Below, in pieces: positions 11,430 through 20,743 of a stretch of DNA of 24,022 bases. The notes below the pieces were generated by a model. The model was given only the letters and a program-made list of their open reading frames with translations. It searched no databases and was not told the DNA's origin. The stretch comes from a virus. Made by a program: the position numbers and the translations under genes. Positions within the stretch are counted from its first letter, which is position 1. Each line of letters opens with the position of its first letter. Location of the stretch: positions 1-24,022 of IMG/VR virus record IMGVR_UViG_3300037427_001466, one strand, 5' to 3'.

Positions 11430-11981
11430 ATGGCATTAACATTATCTAAAAATACAGATTGTACACAGTTAATAGCAGTACAAACTCTTATCAATAGTGG
11501 AGTAGCAGAAACAGGAACTATTGGTCTTACTGTATATAAAAATTGTTGTGATTGTACAGGTTATCCAGTAACTGTTGTAAAAGATGGCGCAAATTTGCCT
11601 ATTAATGTTGTTAATAAATATGGTATTTCTGGAACAACAATTACATTAGAACCTGGAATATTAGGAACAGGTATAACAAAATTTCCTGATGGAGTATATA
11701 AAGTTGTAATTACAGTAACCAAAGATGCTGATGGAGATGGGGTAGATGAAGTTACTACAGAAAGTAATTGTTTCTTTATGGATTGTTCTACTTCTTGTGA
11801 GGTTGCTAAATATATAAAAAATCTTCTTAAAACTCCTGCTGATGTTGAAGCACACTTATTACATTTTGGTTTAGTAAACGGAAGTAACTGTAATTGTAAT
11901 TGTGATGAAATGTGTTCTCTTTATACAAAATTATATAATATATTAAATAATACAGAAGCTTGTTTATGTAACTGTACTTAA
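11430..11981 (+). CDS. Cysteine-rich virion protein candidate, member 1 of a paralogous pair
   Basis: 183 aa with 14 cysteines. The N-terminal 110 residues are beta-rich and contain NCCDC and an EF-hand-like loop DADGDGVDE at residues 99-107. The C-terminal part has FMDCSTSCEV, a helical stretch, NCNCNCDEMC and a final CLCNC. Its second half aligns by eye with the end of the next protein: YKxxIxxx, then FxDCxTxC, a helix, ExH, GL, Cys-rich loop, final helix. I infer a shared terminal domain used for attachment or assembly. Cysteines may bind metal or form disulfides once outside the cell. No enzyme motif is seen, and no named family is recognised. Confidence 0.5.
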   Translation: MALTLSKNTDCTQLIAVQTLINSGVAETGTIGLTVYKNCCDCTGYPVTVVKDGANLPINVVNKYGISGTTITLEPGILGTGITKFPDGVYKVVITVTKDADGDGVDEVTTESNCFFMDCSTSCEVAKYIKNLLKTPADVEAHLLHFGLVNGSNCNCNCDEMCSLYTKLYNILNNTEACLCNCT

Positions 11982-11991
11982 AAAAATAAAA

Positions 11992-12912
11992 ATGGCAGAT
12001 TTAATTTTTTCAAATACAGAATACAAAGCTGATGGTGAAGGATGTACTAATGTACTTGTAAGTATATCTACTGCTGGACTTAATTATCTTGATTATATTT
12101 TTGATCTTAAAACAAAAGATTTTAAAGATATAAAAAAATATACAGTTGTATATTCTAAAGATTGTAGAGATACAGGTGGAAGTGTTGGTGAAACAACATT
12201 AAATATAGCTCCTGATTATGCATTTGGTATAACTAAAAAAAGTTGTATATATCAAACATCTGGTGCAATAAATAAATATACTGTTCAACTAGATGGTATA
12301 AATGGTAATTTAGTTAGTGGAATTAAATTTAATACATCAGGAGCATCATTAGTTACACATTCTTTTGTTAATACATTAGGTGTTCTTACCTTTGTAATAT
12401 CTACTGATAAAACAAACCCTTCACAAGCATTTGATATAGAAATAACAACTACTGCTGGATTTATCTATTCTGGTAGTTTAACAATAGTACAAGATATAAC
12501 AATAAATTGTGGATGGGATGGAACATTTGCTAGTCCAATATCTTTTCCATTAACAACACCTGCAACTAACCCTCCTGCTGTAGTGGTTAATAGTGGAGGA
12601 AAATTAAAAGTAAATAGTTTATTTGCATTAGCAAATCTTACTCCTGCTTTATATAAAATTAAAATATGTGAAGTAGATTTTAATGATATTGGATATTGTG
12701 TAGAAAATGCACAATTTATAGATTGCCATACTACTCCTTGTGTAGAATCTACTTTATGTGATCCTACAGAGGATGTGTGTAATGTTATATTAGAAGTAAA
12801 AAAACAGCATGAGGCAATGATCTATGGTTTAGATTGCTGTAATGAATCAAAAAGAAATTTATTAACCCACTACATTAGAATATACTGTTCTAGTGAAGCA
12901 ACATGTTTATAA
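11992..12912 (+). CDS. Cysteine-rich virion protein candidate, member 2 of a paralogous pair
   Basis: 306 aa with 14 cysteines. The first 230 residues are Ser/Thr/Gly-rich and beta-stranded, in at least two domain-sized halves (about 1-110 and 110-200), as in phage fibre proteins. The C-terminal 80 residues resemble those of the preceding protein: ALYKIKICEV, QFIDCHTTPC, then LCDPTEDVC, a helix with QHEAMIYGLDCC, and a final helix. It differs in carrying a longer N-terminal beta region, so the pair may present different exposed domains on a common base. It starts at ATG 11992 after TTAAAAAAATAAAA, an A-rich leader. Function is not known; a surface or tail role is inferred from context. Confidence 0.5.
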   Translation: MADLIFSNTEYKADGEGCTNVLVSISTAGLNYLDYIFDLKTKDFKDIKKYTVVYSKDCRDTGGSVGETTLNIAPDYAFGITKKSCIYQTSGAINKYTVQLDGINGNLVSGIKFNTSGASLVTHSFVNTLGVLTFVISTDKTNPSQAFDIEITTTAGFIYSGSLTIVQDITINCGWDGTFASPISFPLTTPATNPPAVVVNSGGKLKVNSLFALANLTPALYKIKICEVDFNDIGYCVENAQFIDCHTTPCVESTLCDPTEDVCNVILEVKKQHEAMIYGLDCCNESKRNLLTHYIRIYCSSEATCL

Positions 12913-12913
12913 G

Positions 12914-13240
12914 ATGAATAGAGAATTTTATAAAAACAAAATAAAGTGTATTGATAATAAGCTGGGTACAATAGCTGCAAATACACAAGAAACAAAAGCA
13001 AATTTCCCATCACATCAAGAATTAACTAATCCTTCATCAGTAATTATGAGTGGTTGGAAAAAATTAGATTTTGTATGCAGTGGAGCTATTACAGTTACTA
13101 TTGGAAGTGCTGCTATTATATATCCTAAAACATTAGGTTCTACTACTGTATTAGGAGAATCTTTAGTAGCAGATGACAAAAGTGAAAATCCTGTTACTTT
13201 TAATGGAACAGGAACTGTATTAATAACTATACAACAGTAA
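12914..13240 (+). CDS. Small beta-rich virion protein candidate
   Basis: 108 aa using ATG 12914, one base after the previous stop. A GTG at 12893 would overlap that gene and is less likely. Residues 1-35 look helical (REFYKNKIKCIDNKLGTIA). A beta-rich domain of about 60 residues follows, with WKKLDFVCSGAITVTIG and a closing VLITIQQ strand. This helix-plus-beta layout, like that of the gene at 10991, suits a small trimeric decoration or fibre tip. I see no sequence similarity strong enough to call homology between the two. The family is not recognised. Confidence 0.45.
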   Translation: MNREFYKNKIKCIDNKLGTIAANTQETKANFPSHQELTNPSSVIMSGWKKLDFVCSGAITVTIGSAAIIYPKTLGSTTVLGESLVADDKSENPVTFNGTGTVLITIQQ

Positions 13241-13244
13241 TATA

Positions 13245-13994
13245 ATGAGTTTTTATATTGGTGATTCTTTTAGTCCTAAAACTATTTCTCCCACTAATAT
13301 TGTATTGTGGCTTAAATCTGATGCAGGAGTTAATGGAGGTGCAGCAGTTAATGGTGATGCAGTTTATGAGTGGGCAGATCAATCTGGTAATAGTCACCAT
13401 TTTACTCAAACTACAGGAGCATTGCAGCCAATATATAATGACTCAGTTATAGGAGGGGAAGCAGGAATAACTTTTCTTTCAGATACTCTTGTACATATAG
13501 GACTCCTGTTTGATGCTTTAGCAGCTACAGATTTTACTATATATGTAGTTATGAAGTTAAATGAAATAACAGATACAGGAACAGAAAACCAGAGGAAAAC
13601 TTTAATGAAATTTGGAACTAGTGGGTGGACTACTACACCATCAGGTTCTTGGAATGTAGGATTAGAAGGTGCTATATCTACTAATGGGGCAGGTTATCAA
13701 AGAAACTTAAGTTATACTTATGGTAATTATAATCAAATATTATTAGGCCCACCTGATTTGAATTCTCATTATATTAGTATTTTAAGTCATGGGGAAAATT
13801 ATTTAGATGGAGTGCAAAAAAATGCAGGGCCAGGAGCAACTTTGTTAATTACAGGTGACATACAATATCTTGGAGGATGGAATAATTCCTTTGGGCAATT
13901 TTCTTTATCAGAAATAATTGTGTATAATATAAAACATACAGATGCCCAAAGACTTCAAGTTGAATCATATTTAAAAGATAGATTTACATTATGA
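13245..13994 (+). CDS. LamG/concanavalin A-like lectin protein with MSFYI anchor
   Basis: 249 aa. After the short start MSFYIGDS comes a domain with the hallmarks of concanavalin A-like (LamG-type) jelly rolls: IVLWLKSDAGV, then VYEWADQSGNSHHF, QPIYND, ITFLSDTL, FTIYVVMKL, a loop with YLDG, and the closing LSEIIVYNIKHTDAQRLQVESYL. Such domains bind glycans and occur often in phage receptor-binding proteins. I infer that it binds a host capsule or surface polysaccharide. The N-terminal peptide is shared with three other genes here and probably attaches the protein to the virion. The gene ends in TGA within an ATGA overlap with the next start. Confidence 0.65.
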   Translation: MSFYIGDSFSPKTISPTNIVLWLKSDAGVNGGAAVNGDAVYEWADQSGNSHHFTQTTGALQPIYNDSVIGGEAGITFLSDTLVHIGLLFDALAATDFTIYVVMKLNEITDTGTENQRKTLMKFGTSGWTTTPSGSWNVGLEGAISTNGAGYQRNLSYTYGNYNQILLGPPDLNSHYISILSHGENYLDGVQKNAGPGATLLITGDIQYLGGWNNSFGQFSLSEIIVYNIKHTDAQRLQVESYLKDRFTL

Positions 13995-14227
13995 TAGGTA
14001 TAATAAGTACAGAAGAAAATGTGATTATAGATATAAATAATAGATTGCATGAAGCATTAACAAATGCACCTGTTAAATATGTTGCTCAAAAATATGCGGA
14101 TATATTACAAAAAGATGATGAATTTGCAATAAGAATTGTAGAAAAACCATTAGATTGGAATGAAGTAATAATGCAAACATTAACACAAGAAGAAAAAGAA
14201 AATATCCAATTATTAACATGGATTTAA
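13991..14227 (+). CDS. Small protein of unknown function between fibre genes
   Basis: 78 aa, starting in a 4-bp ATGA overlap with the lectin gene, so it is probably translated by coupling. It is mainly helical and charged (INNRLHEALTNAPVKYV, later LTQEEKENIQLLTWI), with no membrane segment, signal peptide or cysteine. Its position directly behind a fibre-type gene is where phages often keep fibre-folding chaperones, but nothing in the sequence shows that function. The family is not recognised. Confidence 0.4.
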   Translation: MIGIISTEENVIIDINNRLHEALTNAPVKYVAQKYADILQKDDEFAIRIVEKPLDWNEVIMQTLTQEEKENIQLLTWI

Positions 14228-14239
14228 AATAATAAAATT

Positions 14240-15637
14240 ATGAGTTTTATAATACAATCAGGCGGTGAAAGTAATTATGGTGCTACAACAATGGATTTTG
14301 CTATTGATGTTGGAGGTACTACTATCCAATTCAAGGACTTTACAAGTGGTGCTATATTAGATACATATCCTGCAAATAGCTGTACAGCAACAGTAAATTC
14401 TGAGGGTATCAGAATTGAATTTATTGGCGGTCAAAAGGTACTAATAAATAAATTAAATGTAGCTACAATAAAGGTAGCAGGAACATTACAAACATCAGCA
14501 CAAGCAGATATAGTTAATGCATTAAACACACTTTTTGCAAATGTAGGTGGGGGCAATGCTCCTACAATTACTTCTGGAGATATTGCATTAACAGTAGGTG
14601 ACACTATAAATTATCAATTAACAGGTACTAATGTAGTAGCATGGAGTTGGGATAGTTTACCCCATGCAAGTTTAGTTACACAAACAGGTAATCCTAGTAA
14701 ATTAATTGGAGGAAGTACTATGACAGTAGGTACTTATACTGCAGTAGCAAGAGCAACTAATTATAATGGAAGTGTTACTAAAGATATTGATATTGTAGTT
14801 TCAGCAGCTTTTACGAATACCAAAAGTTTTTCACCACATTCTGGAGGTACTTGTTACTTTCAAAAAACTGCGGCAGGGGTTGAGAATAATACACCACTTT
14901 ACAGAGCAGCAGGGAACAGTGGTAGTGCTTGGACTGCCTTTGGATGGCTAAAAAACAATGCAGGAAGTACAGACTGGAAACCCGTTTTATACTTTGGAGA
15001 TTATGGTAGTGGTGCAGGTGGTACAGGTTTGGGTAGGGTAAGATTTTATATTAGAAATTCAACAACTTGGCCATATAATACAATAGAATTATATTTTAGT
15101 TATGGTGCTGCTACTAGTCCATCCACAAATGATATTAAATTTTCAGGACTTGCAGCAGGAGTTGCAAAGAATACATGGTTTAGTTTTATGCTTGTTTATG
15201 ATGGTTCAAACACAAACAACAACGCAAATAGTTCTGATGGGTTTTCAATTTATATAAATGGAGTACAGTTATCACCTTCATGGACTGTAACAGGAGGAGG
15301 ATATGGTGGCTCAATTGAGTATATATCTGGCTTTGATAAGTCACAATTTAATATCGGAAGGGGTGAGTTATCACCTTGGGCAACGGCTTATGCTAATGTG
15401 GTCTACTTTGATGAGATAGCATTATGGCAAAGTGACCAGAGCGCAAATGCTGCTACTTTCCACAATTCGGGTACTCCTATTGATTTATCAAGTTATACCC
15501 CTTATGCATATTATAAATTTGGAGATGCAGCAACAGACATCAGCGGATATCCAATTATGGAGGACATAGGAAGCACAGGAACAGATTTAACCATGTATAA
15601 TGGAACTGTTGCAAATTATTTGTCAGATACACCATAA
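14240..15637 (+). CDS. Fibre-like protein: MSFII anchor, Ig-like (He_PIG type) and LamG-like lectin domains
   Basis: 465 aa. The start MSFIIQS is the shared anchor peptide. Residues about 20-100 form a beta region with IQFKDFTSGAIL. Residues about 107-188 resemble the putative Ig domain He_PIG: APTITS, YQLTGTN, GTYTAVARATNYNGSVT. Residues 190-465 are a LamG-like jelly roll: NTPLYRAAGN, FGWLKNN, TWFSFMLVYDG, FSIYINGVQLSPSW, ALWQSD, YAYYKFGDAATDISGYP. Apart from the anchor, the same order recurs in the C-terminal two thirds of the protein at 17495, and the lectin part is especially similar. The likely role is glycan binding on the virion. I infer exposure of the C-terminal lectin and attachment through the N-terminus. 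Confidence 0.65.
   Translation: MSFIIQSGGESNYGATTMDFAIDVGGTTIQFKDFTSGAILDTYPANSCTATVNSEGIRIEFIGGQKVLINKLNVATIKVAGTLQTSAQADIVNALNTLFANVGGGNAPTITSGDIALTVGDTINYQLTGTNVVAWSWDSLPHASLVTQTGNPSKLIGGSTMTVGTYTAVARATNYNGSVTKDIDIVVSAAFTNTKSFSPHSGGTCYFQKTAAGVENNTPLYRAAGNSGSAWTAFGWLKNNAGSTDWKPVLYFGDYGSGAGGTGLGRVRFYIRNSTTWPYNTIELYFSYGAATSPSTNDIKFSGLAAGVAKNTWFSFMLVYDGSNTNNNANSSDGFSIYINGVQLSPSWTVTGGGYGGSIEYISGFDKSQFNIGRGELSPWATAYANVVYFDEIALWQSDQSANAATFHNSGTPIDLSSYTPYAYYKFGDAATDISGYPIMEDIGSTGTDLTMYNGTVANYLSDTP
14807..15634 (+). repeat. LamG-domain repeat, copy A
   Basis: This segment encodes a LamG domain nearly colinear with 18593-19423. By eye roughly four in five residues are identical, while many third codon positions differ. 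It is a dispersed protein-level repeat. Confidence 0.8.
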
Positions 15638-15646
15638 AAAATAATA

Positions 15647-16456
15647 ATGAGTTTTTACATAGGACATAGTACAGGGTTAGTTAAACACTTAGATGTTTTT
15701 ATTTTGTCTGGGCAAAGTAATGCCATAGGGTATGCAGATGTATCTGATTTATCAAGTGCTTTACAAAATGCAGATAGAACAAATGCAATTATACAAGATA
15801 GGTATCATAATTCTAATGATGCAAATACAACATTAAATAATACAGGATGGATACCTATGGTAATAGGGAATACTGCATTAGCAAATGGATATACAGGTAG
15901 GTTTGGGCCAGAGATAGGATTTATTGATAGAGTTTTTGATTTAACTTCTTCATATACAAGAAAAGTGGCAATATTAAAATATGCAGTAGGGGGGAACAGT
16001 CTTGCTATTGATTTTGACCCTACAGGAGCAGGGAATTATGCTTATCAAAAATTAGCAACAACTATAACAAATGGACTAGCAGAGTTACTAACTGCAGGAT
16101 ATATTTATACTGTAAAAGGAGTTATATGGATGCAAGGAGAAACAGATGCTAAAAGTGCTACTGATTCGTCAAATTATCAAACTAATTTAACTGCTTTTAT
16201 TTCTGCTATAAGAACACTAATTGGAAATAATAATTTACCTTTTGTAATAGGTAATATTATCAGGACAGATGAAGCTGCAAATGCTATTACAGTAAGAGCA
16301 GCACAGGCAGCAGTAACAAGTGCAGATGCATATGCGTCTTTGGTAGATACTACATCTATGTCTCATTCAGATAATGTTCATTTAGATGCAGCAGGTCAAA
16401 TTGCTTTTGGAACTGAATGTGCTAATGAGATGAAAACATTAATAGCTTTGCCATAA
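15647..16456 (+). CDS. SGNH-type carbohydrate esterase (sialate O-acetylesterase/CE6-like) with MSFYI anchor
   Basis: 269 aa. After MSFYIGHS comes the SGNH block I motif LSGQSNAIG with Ser24 as the expected nucleophile. It continues with FGPEIGF, ILKYAVGGNSL, VIWMQGETD and a terminal DNVHLDAAGQIAFG, which supplies the Asp242-x-x-His245 pair. These blocks, in this order, are those of the SASA domain (sialate O-acetylesterase and CE6 acetylxylan esterase relatives). The expected reaction is hydrolysis of O-acetyl esters on a polysaccharide. All catalytic positions appear intact. There is no signal peptide, and the neighbours are lectin-type fibre genes, so I infer a virion-borne deacetylase acting on the host capsule or O-antigen. 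The exact substrate cannot be read from the sequence. Confidence 0.8.
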   Translation: MSFYIGHSTGLVKHLDVFILSGQSNAIGYADVSDLSSALQNADRTNAIIQDRYHNSNDANTTLNNTGWIPMVIGNTALANGYTGRFGPEIGFIDRVFDLTSSYTRKVAILKYAVGGNSLAIDFDPTGAGNYAYQKLATTITNGLAELLTAGYIYTVKGVIWMQGETDAKSATDSSNYQTNLTAFISAIRTLIGNNNLPFVIGNIIRTDEAANAITVRAAQAAVTSADAYASLVDTTSMSHSDNVHLDAAGQIAFGTECANEMKTLIALP

Positions 16457-16469
16457 ACATAAATAAAAT

Positions 16470-17084
16470 ATGAGTTTTATAATTAAATCAACAGGAGGAG
16501 GAAGTTTAACAAATGTTTCTGTACCTAAAGGATTGTGCAGATACCCAGATTTATATGGAGGTTCACCTACAATAGTAGATCAGGGGTTTGCTAATGATAG
16601 AATAAGATTTCATCCTGCACAGATGATTCAAATTTACCAAGATACTGTAATAGATACTATTAAATATCATATACTAATAGCTAGTGCTACAGATGAATGG
16701 TATTTTGGGTTATATAAATATGACTTATCTACTGATAAATATATAAAAACATGTCAATGGGATATTACTAGCTTAGGAGCTACAGGTGCAATATCTCAAA
16801 GCTTGGGTAGTCCAATAACAATAGAAGCAGGTACATATTTTATTGGAGGTAAAAGTAAAGATAATACAGCAGAAGGAGTAGGTATTGCTGCAACAGATAT
16901 AAATAGACCACAAGTTATGTGGCATACTGCTGCAACAGATATTAGTGTAACAACTAATAGGATAAATGGTTTTCAAGCTACAGTAGATTCTGCTCTTACA
17001 GTTTTACCTATAGAATTATTAAATTCTAGTATAACTTATTTCAGAGAATCTTATCCTCAATTTGTTCCTTATTTAGTATATTAA
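16470..17084 (+). CDS. Beta-sandwich fibre protein with MSFII anchor
   Basis: 204 aa, starting MSFIIKSTGGGS, the shared anchor peptide followed by a glycine linker. The body shows WYFGLYKYDLSTDKY, then a Gly/Ser-rich turn, and ITIEAGTYFIGGKSKD. The pattern of an FGLY strand, a turn and a later xxxGTYFxxG strand is seen in small beta-sandwich domains at the tips of phage fibres. I infer a binding role but cannot name a family. A catalytic site is not visible. It lies 13 bp after the esterase gene and shares its start sequence ATGAGTTTTATAAT with the gene at 14240. Confidence 0.5.
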   Translation: MSFIIKSTGGGSLTNVSVPKGLCRYPDLYGGSPTIVDQGFANDRIRFHPAQMIQIYQDTVIDTIKYHILIASATDEWYFGLYKYDLSTDKYIKTCQWDITSLGATGAISQSLGSPITIEAGTYFIGGKSKDNTAEGVGIAATDINRPQVMWHTAATDISVTTNRINGFQATVDSALTVLPIELLNSSITYFRESYPQFVPYLVY

Positions 17085-17093
17085 ATTTAAAAA

Positions 17094-17495
17094 ATGGATT
17101 ATTATAAAATATCAAAAGGTAATTTTTCTGTTACACAAAAGTACAATATAGAAGCAGAGGCTCAAGCAGTTGCAGATGATTTAGGAATAGGTTATATAGT
17201 AACATATTTATATCCATATGTACCTCCAACTTTACAAGAAAGATTACAAATGGACTTAGATTTTGGTAATCATTTAGTTTTTACTTTTGTAGAAGATAAT
17301 AGAATACAAGCTATTACTACAACACAATCAGAAGCATTGTTAGTTAAATTTAGAGATATATTAGCATTTGCACAAACAGGAGCAATAACTTCAATAGCAA
17401 CTTATTTACCTAATATATCTGTAGATGATGTATTTACACAAGAAAGAAAAGATAAGTATATTACAATGATTAATAATTATTTAAGCAAATTTTAA
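17094..17495 (+). CDS. Small mixed alpha/beta protein between fibre genes
   Basis: 133 aa, starting after an A-rich leader (TTTAAAAAATGG). Two parts can be seen: an N-terminal alpha/beta part of about 45 residues (ISKGNFSVTQKYN, DDLGIGYIVTYLY) and a helical C-terminal part with LQERLQMDLDFGNHL, TQSEALLVKFRDILAF and a final RKDKYITMINNYLSKF. There is no membrane segment or signal. Its stop overlaps the start of the 643-aa fibre gene by one base (TAATG), which implies coupled translation and perhaps a functional pair, for example a base or chaperone for that fibre. This is inference from position. The family is not recognised. Confidence 0.45.
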   Translation: MDYYKISKGNFSVTQKYNIEAEAQAVADDLGIGYIVTYLYPYVPPTLQERLQMDLDFGNHLVFTFVEDNRIQAITTTQSEALLVKFRDILAFAQTGAITSIATYLPNISVDDVFTQERKDKYITMINNYLSKF

Positions 17496-19426
17496 TGTCT
17501 GATTTATTTAATTATAGAAATACAAATTTAATAGGTTCTGTTATTGAGGGATATGAATATAATTCTTCAACTGGGGAAACTAACACTATTGCCAAAGTAT
17601 TTTATGTAATTGATAAAACACAACTTTTACTTACAGGGAAAACTGTAAAAACACAAGTTTATGTTACTGTATTAATTGATCCAACTTATACAACATATAC
17701 AAGCATTGAAACTTCCAATTTAGATTTAACTAGTATTGCTTATATTGCTACTGAATCAATAATTGATGTTAAAGAGTTTCCAAAAACAACACCTTTAATT
17801 TCAATGGAAAATGGGTTGGTAGGTGCTAACATAAAAGGGTATGAATATAATGTAGCAACAGGTCAAAGTAATACTGTTGAAACTACATGTAAAATAATTG
17901 ACAAGATGGAGATACTTGTTTCAGATATATTAACCCAAGTATATGTTTGTGTGTTATATTCTGGAACTACAGGATCTGATAAACTATATGTACCATTTAC
18001 TTCTGTTACAGAAGTAGTATCATTTGGAATTATAGATTATGGTAGACCTTCTGTATTAAGATATACAGGAATGAATTTTAAACAAGATGCTGGTTTAACA
18101 AGTGTTTTATTTAAAGATATTACTAGTGGAAATATATTAAGAGTAGAACCTATAAATACTATTCAAGCAGTAAATACAGCACCAAGTACAGATATTGTAA
18201 TACAAAGAACAGGTGGTGAAGAAATAATTATACAAGGATTAGAATTAGCTGTTACACAGATAAATGGTGTAGTAGCAGGAGCTACAATTGCAGCTGCTGT
18301 AATAGCTTTAAATGCTCTGTTTGCTCATGCAGGAAGTGTAGGAAGTGCTCCTACTATTACATCCTCTACTTCATTATCTTTGACTTTAGGGCAAGTACTT
18401 AATTATGAATTAACAGGAACAAATATTGTGTCTGTAGTTTGGACAAATTTACCAACAGGTATTGCTCCTGTAATAGGTAATATTTTTAAGATAATAGGAG
18501 GAAGTGCATTAAGTGCAGGAACATATAATTTTACTGTAGAAGCAATAAATTATTATGGGTCTGTAACAGCATCTATCTCGTTATCTATTTCTGCTTCTTA
18601 TACAAATACAAAAAGTTTTAATCCAGGTTCAGGTAGTAATGCCTATTTTCAAAAAACGGCAGTTGGAGTTGAAAATAATACTCCTTTGTATAGAGCAGCA
18701 GGTAATACAGGGCCAGCATGGTCTGTTTTTGGATGGTTAAAAAATAATGCAGCAAGTACTGCGTGGAAACCTGTTTTTTATTTTGGTGATTATAGCAGTG
18801 GAGCAGGCGGCACAAATTTAGGTAGAGTGAGATTCCATAATAGAATTTCAACTACATGGCCATACAATACAATAGAGTTATACTTTTCTTATGGCCTTGC
18901 TACTTATCCAGATGTTAATCTAATAAAATTTTCAGGATTAGCGGCAGGGGTTTCTAAAAATACTTGGTTTTCATTTATGGTAGTTTATGATGGTGGAAAT
19001 ACTAATACAGGTAGTGCCACAAGTTCCAATCCTTTTTCTATTTACATAAACGGGGTACAGTTGTCTCCATCTTGGACTGTTGTAGGTGGAGGGTATGGTG
19101 GAAGTATTGAGTACATATCTGGGTTTGATAAAAGCCAAGTAAATATAGCTAGAGGTGAAGCAACAGGAGTAACAAAATATGCCAATGTTACATTTTTTGA
19201 TGAAATGGCATTGTGGCAATCTGATGAGAGTAGCAATGTAGCAACATTTCACAACTCAGGAACGCCAATAGATTTGACTTCATATAATCCTTATGCTTAC
19301 TATAGGTTTGGTGATGCACCAACAGATATTTCTGGTTATCCTATAATGGAAGATGTGGGAACAACAGGGACAGACCTTACAGCTTATAATGGAACAGTAG
19401 CAGATTATGTATCAGATGTACCATAA
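17495..19426 (+). CDS. Large fibre-like protein: tandem N-terminal repeats, Ig-like and LamG-like lectin domains
   Basis: 643 aa. Residues about 12-95 and 108-190 form a tandem repeat: LIGSVIEGYEYNSSTGETNT against LVGANIKGYEYNVATGQSNT, later TQVYV in each. Residues about 200-280 match the beta region of the gene at 14240 (FKDITSGNIL). Residues 285-366 are a He_PIG-type Ig domain (LPTGI, IIGGSALSAGTYNFTVEA, YYGSVTAS). Residues 367-643 are a LamG-like lectin highly similar to that of the 14240 protein. It lacks the MSF(Y/I)I start, so its repeats may be a different attachment module. I infer a receptor-binding or capsule-binding virion protein. The start overlaps the previous stop by one base. 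Confidence 0.65.
   Translation: MSDLFNYRNTNLIGSVIEGYEYNSSTGETNTIAKVFYVIDKTQLLLTGKTVKTQVYVTVLIDPTYTTYTSIETSNLDLTSIAYIATESIIDVKEFPKTTPLISMENGLVGANIKGYEYNVATGQSNTVETTCKIIDKMEILVSDILTQVYVCVLYSGTTGSDKLYVPFTSVTEVVSFGIIDYGRPSVLRYTGMNFKQDAGLTSVLFKDITSGNILRVEPINTIQAVNTAPSTDIVIQRTGGEEIIIQGLELAVTQINGVVAGATIAAAVIALNALFAHAGSVGSAPTITSSTSLSLTLGQVLNYELTGTNIVSVVWTNLPTGIAPVIGNIFKIIGGSALSAGTYNFTVEAINYYGSVTASISLSISASYTNTKSFNPGSGSNAYFQKTAVGVENNTPLYRAAGNTGPAWSVFGWLKNNAASTAWKPVFYFGDYSSGAGGTNLGRVRFHNRISTTWPYNTIELYFSYGLATYPDVNLIKFSGLAAGVSKNTWFSFMVVYDGGNTNTGSATSSNPFSIYINGVQLSPSWTVVGGGYGGSIEYISGFDKSQVNIARGEATGVTKYANVTFFDEMALWQSDESSNVATFHNSGTPIDLTSYNPYAYYRFGDAPTDISGYPIMEDVGTTGTDLTAYNGTVADYVSDVP
17528..18064 (+). repeat. 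Tandem repeat of an approximately 90-residue domain
   Basis: Two copies, with a period of about 96 residues, lie in the N-terminal part of the 643-aa protein. Shared landmarks are GYEYN, TG(E/Q)(T/S)NT, IIDK/VIDK and TQVYV. The copies have diverged, so this is a protein-level repeat. Confidence 0.65.
18593..19423 (+). repeat. LamG-domain repeat, copy B
   Basis: Partner of 14807-15634. Long identical protein blocks such as FSIYINGVQLSPSW and GGGYGGSIEYISGFDKSQ are encoded with different synonymous codons, which points to an old split under protein-level selection. Confidence 0.8.
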
Positions 19427-19463
19427 ACATAAATTAATATATAACGTATAAAATAAAAACCCT

Positions 19464-20002: not shown

Positions 20003-20743
20003 ATGAAAAGTAAAATAAAGAATAAAGCAAAAGAAAAGTTCAAAAAACTAAAATTTAAAGAAGAAAATCATATTTATAGTGTTGATGATAAAAAGATACC
20101 TTCTACATCATCTTTAATAAAACAATTCTATAAAGATTTTGATAGTGAGAAAGTATCTTCTTTTGTTGCTAAGAAAGAAGGTGTTTCACAACAAGAAGTT
20201 TTAGACAAATGGACAGAAATAAATCTAGAAGCTATAAATAGAGGAACAAAGGTTCATGAATTTGCAGAAGATTATTGCAATGGTTTAGATGTTAAACCTT
20301 TTTGTGTGCAATCACAAGCAGTTGTAGATTTCTGGGATAGCTTGCCAGCATATTATGAATTAGTTTTTGTAGAATTACAAATGTGTAATGAAGAGTATTG
20401 GTATGCAGGAACTACTGACTTTGTTCTATTGGATAAAAGAGATGGTAGTTTGGTAATAGGAGACTATAAAACAAACAAAGATTTGTTTAAAAGTTATAAT
20501 AATATGTTACCTCCTTTTGATTTATTAAAAGATAATCCGTATAATCATTACCAGATACAGTTTTCATATTACCAAATTCTTTTAGAACAATTAGGTTATA
20601 GGATTAGTAATAGATTATTAGTTTGGCTAAAGCATGATGGAGGGTATGAAACATATAATACCAGCAACTTTAGTAATGTTTTAAAAATGACTTTCGATGA
20701 CAAATGGAGAAATAATACAGAGAGTGCAGAGTATGTATTCTAA
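20003..20743 (+). CDS. PD-(D/E)XK nuclease (RecB/Cas4-like)
   Basis: 246 aa. The pattern is that of PDDEXK-type RecB-like nucleases: an N-terminal HIYSVDDKKIPSTSSLIKQF segment, RGTKVHEFAE with His85, GTTDFVLL with Asp139, VIGDYKTNK with Asp154 and Lys156, and a following helix QIQFSYYQILLEQ with the conserved glutamine region. All expected active-site positions appear present. The reaction is metal-dependent DNA cleavage. No cysteine cluster of the Cas4 iron-sulfur type is evident. The position at the head of the ring, IHF-like and adaptor genes suggests a packaging or genome-processing role, but recombination or host DNA degradation is equally possible. Its 3' end overlaps the next gene by 47 bp in another frame. 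Confidence 0.8.
   Translation: MKSKIKNKAKEKFKKLKFKEENHIYSVDDKKIPSTSSLIKQFYKDFDSEKVSSFVAKKEGVSQQEVLDKWTEINLEAINRGTKVHEFAEDYCNGLDVKPFCVQSQAVVDFWDSLPAYYELVFVELQMCNEEYWYAGTTDFVLLDKRDGSLVIGDYKTNKDLFKSYNNMLPPFDLLKDNPYNHYQIQFSYYQILLEQLGYRISNRLLVWLKHDGGYETYNTSNFSNVLKMTFDDKWRNNTESAEYVF

Follow-up and report, generated by a model that had tools for sequence, protein, structure and literature searches.

The adhesin island of a crAss-like phage

The 24,022-base virus record IMGVR_UViG_3300037427_001466 (hereafter the window, meaning that whole stretch of DNA) holds four neighbouring genes whose proteins begin with one short peptide followed by different domains. Its terminase, portal and major capsid genes are crAss-like (phrog_6681, 6547, 11589), and the closest named capsid proteins are those of Flavobacterium phages FpV4/Fpv1, whose major capsid protein is 59.5% identical. 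Gene 8625 resembles the crAss001 ring protein gp34 (E 4.4e-5) and gene 9360 the crAss001 auxiliary capsid protein gp36 (E 0.0023). Taken together, these five proteins place the phage in the Crassvirales. Compared with the DNA of a related locus, L004, the window is similar as far as 12917 and once more from 19448 onwards, and between these points only the gene at 17089-17483 is similar; by this comparison, 12914-19447 is a hypervariable island (Table 1).

Table 1. Genes and peptide segments of the island, with the gene pair that precedes it
Feature	Position	Strand	Basis
Two genes, 14 Cys each	11430-11981, 11992-12912	+	conserved in L004 (77.8% DNA)
Adaptor gene, 108 amino acids (aa): N-terminal anchor of ~30 residues and C-terminal 'socket A' of ~75 aa	12914..13240	+	blastp, alignment, hidden Markov model (HMM)
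Plug-A protein 1: MSFYIGDS + virion-structural/lectin-like domain	13245..13994	+	phrog_10356 'virion structural protein', E 6.8e-13, residues 8-248
Plug A peptide MSFYIGDS, first 8 codons	13245..13268	+
Plug-A protein 2: MSFIIQSGG + 465-aa multidomain protein	14240..15637	+	no Pfam/PHROG match
Plug A peptide MSFIIQSGG, first 9 codons	14240..14266	+
Plug-A protein 3: MSFYIGHS + SASA/SGNH acetylesterase, residues 15-262	15647..16456	+	Pfam PF03629, E 7.6e-33
Plug A peptide MSFYIGHS, first 8 codons	15647..15670	+
Plug-A protein 4: MSFIIKSTGGGS + adhesin beta-sandwich ('IYKYD' family); starts MSFIIKST	16470..17084	+	alignments, model
Plug A peptide + Gly/Ser linker MSFIIKSTGGGS, first 12 codons	16470..16505	+
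133-aa partner gene of beta-sandwich adhesins	17094..17495	+	found whatever the adhesin N-terminus
Paralogue of 14240; 178-aa N-terminal part replaces the plug	17495..19426	+	sequence comparison with 14240

The open reading frames (ORFs) at 13245, 14240, 15647 and 16470 all start MSF(Y/I)I, as an earlier note on this DNA had claimed and as the ORF list and codons confirm. We call the general form of this peptide, M[SAG]FxI with its linker, plug A. Of the domains that the earlier note had placed behind it, the esterase (Pfam SASA) and the beta-sandwich (model) hold up, whereas LamG and Ig domains find no Pfam match. Residues 4-465 of the 14240 product are 65% identical (299/460 positions) to residues 179-643 of the plugless protein at 17495. 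That 643-aa protein has two similar stretches in its N-terminal part (NLIGSVIEGYEYNSSTGETNT... and GLVGANIKGYEYNVATGQSNT..., within 17495-18028), possibly an anchor of another kind. The SASA match of the 15647 product scores 114.5 bits against a curated cut-off of 24.8, and its sequence contains GQSN and DNVH, which we take to be the GQSN and D-x-x-H motifs of SASA/SGNH esterases. Between two of the plug genes lies a 78-aa ORF (13991-14227) that overlaps the end of 13245, with no family above cut-off and no relative among the loci compared below.

In two of the four proteins the peptide appears to lie outside the folded domain. In 15647 the SASA domain begins at residue 15, and relatives align only from residue 13-18 or later. 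For 16470, a monomer model of moderate quality (mean predicted local distance difference test score, pLDDT, 64) leaves residues 1-16 below pLDDT 50 (the first ten average 32) and free of secondary structure, the fold starting at about residue 44. The earlier note had held that docking would be unlikely if the peptide were buried as an ordinary first strand; in this sole model it forms no strand. The sandwich itself is modelled as adhesin-like: it is structurally similar to cyanophage A4 capsid chain 9jwb_Z (Z 11.0), the Bxb1 tail tip 9d93_Pa (Z 9.9) and another mycobacteriophage tail-tip fibre (Bxb1/Douge, Z 8.0), with carbohydrate-binding modules ranking lower.

The shared peptide is not a chance likeness. 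With column frequencies taken from 654 unique ORF starts in 51 loci (ORFs called mechanically: ATG, >=60 aa, plus strand, non-overlapping), 0.004 MSF[IY]I starts are expected among the window's 24 ORFs and four are observed, a binomial P(>=4) of 8e-12 for a motif picked post hoc. A motif-free permutation, scoring at least four starts alike at three of four positions, reached this level in 51 of 20,000 random sets. The claim that the DNA of the starts is also alike stands in so far as ATGAGTTTT is identical in all four genes; the pattern ATGAGTTTTWTAWT (<=2 mismatches) has 10 matches versus 5.3 +/- 2.3 in shuffles, and DNA likeness of the starts alone is weak evidence, not significant.

Plug A is conserved as a peptide in unrelated phages

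Searching with the 133-aa gene at 17094 as bait yielded 21 loci, and its alignment yielded 27, including all 21 (loci are numbered L). Eight viral records contain plug A, and their head genes fall into at least three unrelated sets. Besides those of the window, starts adjoining 17094-family genes include MSFIIGQPSGGGGGG (L109, L110, L120), MSFVIQGG and MSFLIEQGGGGG (L122), MGFIIETGGG (L121) and MAFTIQSGGGS (L128). Twelve of the 654 unique ORFs start M[SAG]F[IVLTY]I, where 0.64 are expected; within loci that hold a 17094-family gene, such starts are found in 8 of 39 ORFs adjacent to it versus 3 of 294 non-adjacent ones, and the twelfth, probably a chance match, lies in a locus that has no such gene (L019). 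L122 carries a crAss-like terminase and portal, L109 a portal of phrog_7376 and a terminase of phrog_2, and L121 a head protease of phrog_94; since these head genes differ, the peptide is present in at least three unrelated phage types.

Across 11 aligned genes, F3 and I5 are invariant, codon 2 is AGT, AGC, GGC or GCT, and codon 4, at which all bases vary, encodes Y, I, V, L or T. In the window, codons 4-5 of the four genes differ synonymously (TAT ATT / TAC ATA; ATA ATA / ATA ATT). Because the codons vary while the amino acids persist, the peptide is evidently kept at the protein level, and other phages carry quite different domains behind it; to this extent the earlier proposal of a shared N-terminal peptide with exchangeable domains is borne out. 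The same codons bear on the idea that the likeness is a translation-start sequence, with ATGAGTTTTATAAT governing expression in AT-rich genomes whatever amino acids it happens to encode. It is true that all four window genes share their first nine bases and that codon 3 is TTT in 11 of 11, but codon 2 varies, codon 4 varies at all three bases and yet remains within the five residues listed, and other genes of the island do without the sequence. We consider this explanation very improbable.

Adhesin domains are exchanged at the end of the linker

Pairs of related loci reveal where domains have been swapped. L109 and L120 are 94.8% identical over 1046 nucleotides (nt) up to L109:7412, which is codon 15-16 of the plug gene and the end of its Gly run; past this point the two have nothing detectably in common up to L109:8001, where the 17094-family gene has its ATG and from which they are 91% identical. 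A second leader, MAxQKYNPLL...GGGG (hereafter plug B), shows the same pattern: L111 and L114 are 91.7% identical over the first 72 nt, then unlike save for short pieces, and 96% identical in DNA again from just before the next gene. These breakpoints fall where the Gly linker ends, whereas the earlier note had placed the swapping at the start codon.

Conversely, one adhesin domain can stand on different N-termini, as in L122:6381 and L004:15251 (155/186 residues identical) and in L122:5378 and L004:14171 (111/178). Further pairs of this kind, each with its own domain, are L111:5955 and L114:2803 (161/201), L107 and L110 (125/186) and, inside the window, 14240 and 17495 (299/460). Given both the swaps behind a fixed leader and the domains mounted on differing N-termini, leader and domain are separable modules joined at the linker. 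The earlier note had counted homologues with unrelated N-termini as a sign against docking; they do occur, and they are what a swappable plug predicts.

A candidate socket domain accompanies plug A

Immediately upstream of the first plug gene, the 108-aa protein at 12914-13240 has a C-terminal part, which we call socket A, that by blastp matches L109, L110, L120, L121, L122, L126 and L128 at 49-61% identity and nowhere else among the loci. All seven carry plug A, and an HMM profile of socket A finds the same eight loci only. L126 was spotted solely through its socket match, after which MSFNI was found in the next gene.

We tabulated co-occurrence over 18 loci with the island in view (L117 in part only), leaving out five whose contig begins at, inside or just before the 17094-family gene (L105, L106, L116, L123, L124) and seven duplicates or near-duplicates (L108, L112, L113, L115, L119, L130, L131). 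All 8 plug-A loci have socket A and none of the 10 other untruncated loci does, and it is the only family with such a profile (exact p 2.3e-5). Removing L120 (close to L109) and L114 (close to L111) leaves 7 and 9 loci and p 8.7e-5. Over whole records, socket A is found in 8/8 with plug A versus 0/30 others, 5 of the 30 being cut off upstream. Counted from the socket side, 12 of 153 ORFs in socket-A loci start M[SAG]FxI versus 1 of 501 elsewhere. Thus a separate anchor protein with a candidate docking domain occurs in the same genomes as the plug, as a matter of co-occurrence.

The N-termini that carry socket A are of four or five kinds. The window has a short stretch resembling a coiled coil, L109, L110 and L120 have MKVY, L122 has MKVF (weakly like MKVY), L121 has MIDSIT, and L126 and L128 have MAILIQ. 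In L110 the MKVY anchor also directly carries an adhesin (6101). Neither the adaptors nor their socket parts match a Pfam family, convincingly a PHROG, or a PDB sequence; three adaptors had no tblastn match in 50,697 named phage records, and scans with the adaptor found no relative in genomes and none in plasmids.

The strict association also bears on the proposal that each protein needs the peptide to oligomerise or fold, for instance as a strand that trimerises the N-termini. Adhesins are often trimers, and F3 and I5 supply alternating hydrophobic residues; this proposal, however, leaves the exact co-occurrence with the socket unexplained, and the leader is unstructured in the moderate-quality monomer model of 16470. 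We regard it as quite improbable.

Where the peptide would dock is narrowed by close relatives. The earlier note had looked to virion base proteins, and direct docking onto a conserved tail hub or capsid protein has a precedent in crAss001, where, in the available part of the structural report, residues 1-26 of gp22 sit in the tail hub and gp21 (1-38) and gp29 (1-58) in hexon pockets (PMC10172136). The island, moreover, comes after the gp34-like ring gene and the gp36-like capsid gene. Yet L003 and L004, whose flanking genes are ~76-78% identical in DNA to those of the window, have other N-termini, and the peptide is also found with unrelated head genes. With the flanking genes shared by L003 and L004 but not the leader, a conserved virion protein makes a poor candidate for the partner; we hold direct docking to be improbable and consider the adaptor of the same island the best candidate.

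A second candidate pair

Loci with plug B have their own small upstream protein, which carries a different C-terminal domain, socket B (L107:7113, L003:9947, L111:5642, L114:738). Socket B is present in 4/4 plug-B loci and 0/14 others. The comparison between the two pairs is sharpest for the window and L003: the proteins 12914 and L003:9947 share their N-terminal anchor (15/30 residues identical, DNA similar to about codon 19), and despite this common anchor the window has socket A with plug A and L003 has socket B with plug B. L004 lacks plug and socket alike, and there the adhesin domains of L122 are mounted on N-termini of their own.

This comparison weakens what we see as the main rival, namely linkage without binding, in which adaptor and adhesins travel as one host-recognition island and the peptide never touches the socket. 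The genes adjoin in the window, L109, L110 and L120, and whole host-recognition modules are known to move between unrelated phages, according to the accessible part of one study (PMC10579305). It is, however, the socket domain and not the whole gene that tracks the plug, and the equally near 17094-family gene goes with every N-terminus rather than with plug A only. We consider linkage of this kind unlikely.

A proposed plug-and-socket model

We favour with fair confidence a plug-and-socket reading of the island at 12914-19426, in which a peptide plug, an adaptor socket and exchangeable adhesins would together form an exchangeable adhesin set. Binding itself, and with it the strand geometry, stoichiometry and virion position given here, is what we infer. 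M[SAG]FxI with its flexible, often Gly-rich linker would be the plug; probably as a short beta strand, it would insert into the ~75-residue C-terminal socket of the adaptor, and the co-occurrence makes binding of plug to socket probable. The lineage-specific N-terminus of the adaptor would anchor it on the virion, here most likely at the tail hub collar. The gene pair at 11430-12912 is a candidate for that hub, by its position after the gp36-like gene and by the partly available description of the crAss001 hub (PMC10172136); its second gene, 11992, had no tblastn match in the named phage records. One docking site would serve all four plug proteins, namely the lectin-like one, the multidomain one of 465 aa, the acetylesterase and the beta-sandwich, whose fold is carbohydrate-binding-like. 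Recombination at the linker end would bring in new adhesins, any domain behind the plug would fit, and any phage bearing the socket would be able to use plug-carrying adhesins.

On a wider scale, we lean, by less, towards the view that unrelated lineages of uncultured phages, among them crAss-like ones, have in common a standard that comprises two or more orthogonal plug-socket pairs, each phage grafting the socket on its own anchor and exchanging adhesins and enzymes at the linker.

Several observations weigh against these proposals. The sample is small, with 18 loci, some of them close relatives, and the plug motif was widened after the data were seen (L126 has MSFNI); if L126 is not counted as a plug, the association becomes 7/7 versus 1/11 (p 2.5e-4, by hand). 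Because the socket and plug genes are neighbours, linkage alone could hold them together. Two of the window's four plug proteins have no Gly run behind the peptide. A test for shared starts within the same locus is enriched only modestly, at 6 of 6321 pairs versus 9 of 29397 (score >=22). The first DNA pattern scans of viral contigs for the peptide gave mostly chance matches and no second array: of 71 stretches matching the MSFYIG pattern, few open a long ORF there and none has a second M[SAG]F[IVLTY]I start, and neither of the two stretches matching MSFII..S has a plug-like ORF start. Two of the loci that are chance DNA matches, L041 and L053, have a 76-aa ORF, MAFEITNSGG, that fits the widened motif, and no socket A. 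For the second pair, L117, one of the 14 other loci, has plug B and no socket B in view, its contig starting 677 bases upstream of the plug-B gene. Nor is the profile of plug B unique to socket B, because a third N-terminal family, MNIIKEILGLF (MNIIKEILGLFRRNTIVTPED...; L114:1051, L111:5955, L003:10212), also follows the plug-B loci, being present in these and L117 but absent from the rest of the 18.

Relation to known systems

Secondary adhesins with short docking peptides have been described before, as has docking by N-terminal segments in crAss001, both in sources available in part (PMC6872550; PMC10172136). In anchor-branch receptor-binding proteins, the peptide is MALxxLV in KP34 and has 7 and 11 residues in K1-5, K1E and SP6 (accessible part of PMC6872550). 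As that part describes them, the systems of Klebsiella KP34 viruses, the KP32 group A, E. coli K1-5/K1E, Salmonella SP6 and G7C place an N-terminal peptide as short as seven residues on secondary adhesins, with variable domains behind it, docking on an adaptor or primary adhesin, and a peptide that differs by phage group. Several adhesins of the window likewise carry a common short N-terminal peptide before unrelated domains. They differ from the systems in that excerpt in having an unrelated peptide and adaptor, no T4gp10-like domain matched in sequence searches, breakpoints at Gly runs, two candidate peptide-socket pairs spread across unrelated lineages including crAss-like phages, and a single adaptor gene alongside four plug genes.

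PhiCrAss001 is a Crassvirales relative, and genes like its gp34 and gp36 occur in the window in matching order. There, N-terminal segments (1-26, 1-38 and 1-58) hold gp22 on the THA/THB hub and the head fibres gp21 and gp29; these segments are longer and belong to single proteins, and the available part of the report describes no peptide common to several fibres (PMC10172136). PDB sequence searches with the plug proteins or their alignment, which compare sequence only, returned no crAss001 chain. The Alteromonas phages A5/V22 resemble the present case in that distantly related phages share an adhesin and an adjacent chaperone-like gene; in the accessible part of that study no exchangeable docking peptide is described, and how the module fits different virions is left open (PMC10579305). 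A plug and adaptor would answer how one module of the A5/V22 type fits different virions. With cyanophage A4 capsid 9jwb_Z and the mycobacteriophage Bxb1/Douge tail-tip fibres, the 16470 adhesin shares the fold at only ~14-17% identity.

What appears new here, judged from sequence, is the peptide with its putative socket, the two pairs, the breakpoints at the linker and the spread over unrelated phages. The parts appear novel because adaptor and socket match no Pfam family, convincingly no PHROG and no named phage record, and our literature search found no description of this peptide-adaptor pair, which is no proof of absence. If true, the model would explain how unrelated phages come to use the same adhesins: the adaptor suits the virion and the socket suits the plug, which leaves the adhesin free to change. 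It would also supply a sequence rule, a peptide with linker plus its cognate socket gene, by which host-range genes could be recognised in uncultured phages; most of the adhesins studied here match no database. The model also offers a testable peptide-domain pair.

Partner gene and neighbouring observations

The 133-aa product of 17094 may be chaperone-like, as a fibre chaperone would go with the adhesin domain whatever its leader; its position points this way. Its model is confident (pLDDT 94), with no convincing Pfam, PHROG or PDB match for the family, no tblastn match in the named phage records and no relative in a genome scan with the family, so it is possibly a new fibre chaperone fold. 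A specific fold was rejected, the best Foldseek E being 1.2 and a weak match to a DGR Avd-like bundle (probability 0.25) being no evidence. As a docking partner the protein is ruled out, since it occurs with every N-terminus.

Among the adhesins, 13245, 14240 and 16470 had no tblastn match in the phage records, nor had L110:7414, and a scan using 14240 found no relative, while 15647 has three distant relatives by scan and three weak tblastn matches in those records.

Downstream of the island, an exonuclease-like gene (20003-20743; phrog_298, E 1.2e-31) lies within the structural block, as in Fpv1, and a scan using 20697 found one locus, on the contig of L004. The window's 10991 product begins with a helical ..INKLKKCLC.. 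stretch, and similar ..KIKCLxK.. starts are found in several neighbouring proteins of L010:13385-15431; these are possible coiled-coil anchors. Finally, in another crAss-like phage (L022:4528-6626 and L023:14232-16330), three adjacent proteins have a common N-terminus around DHISVKD..xFG, possibly a similar array with another leader.

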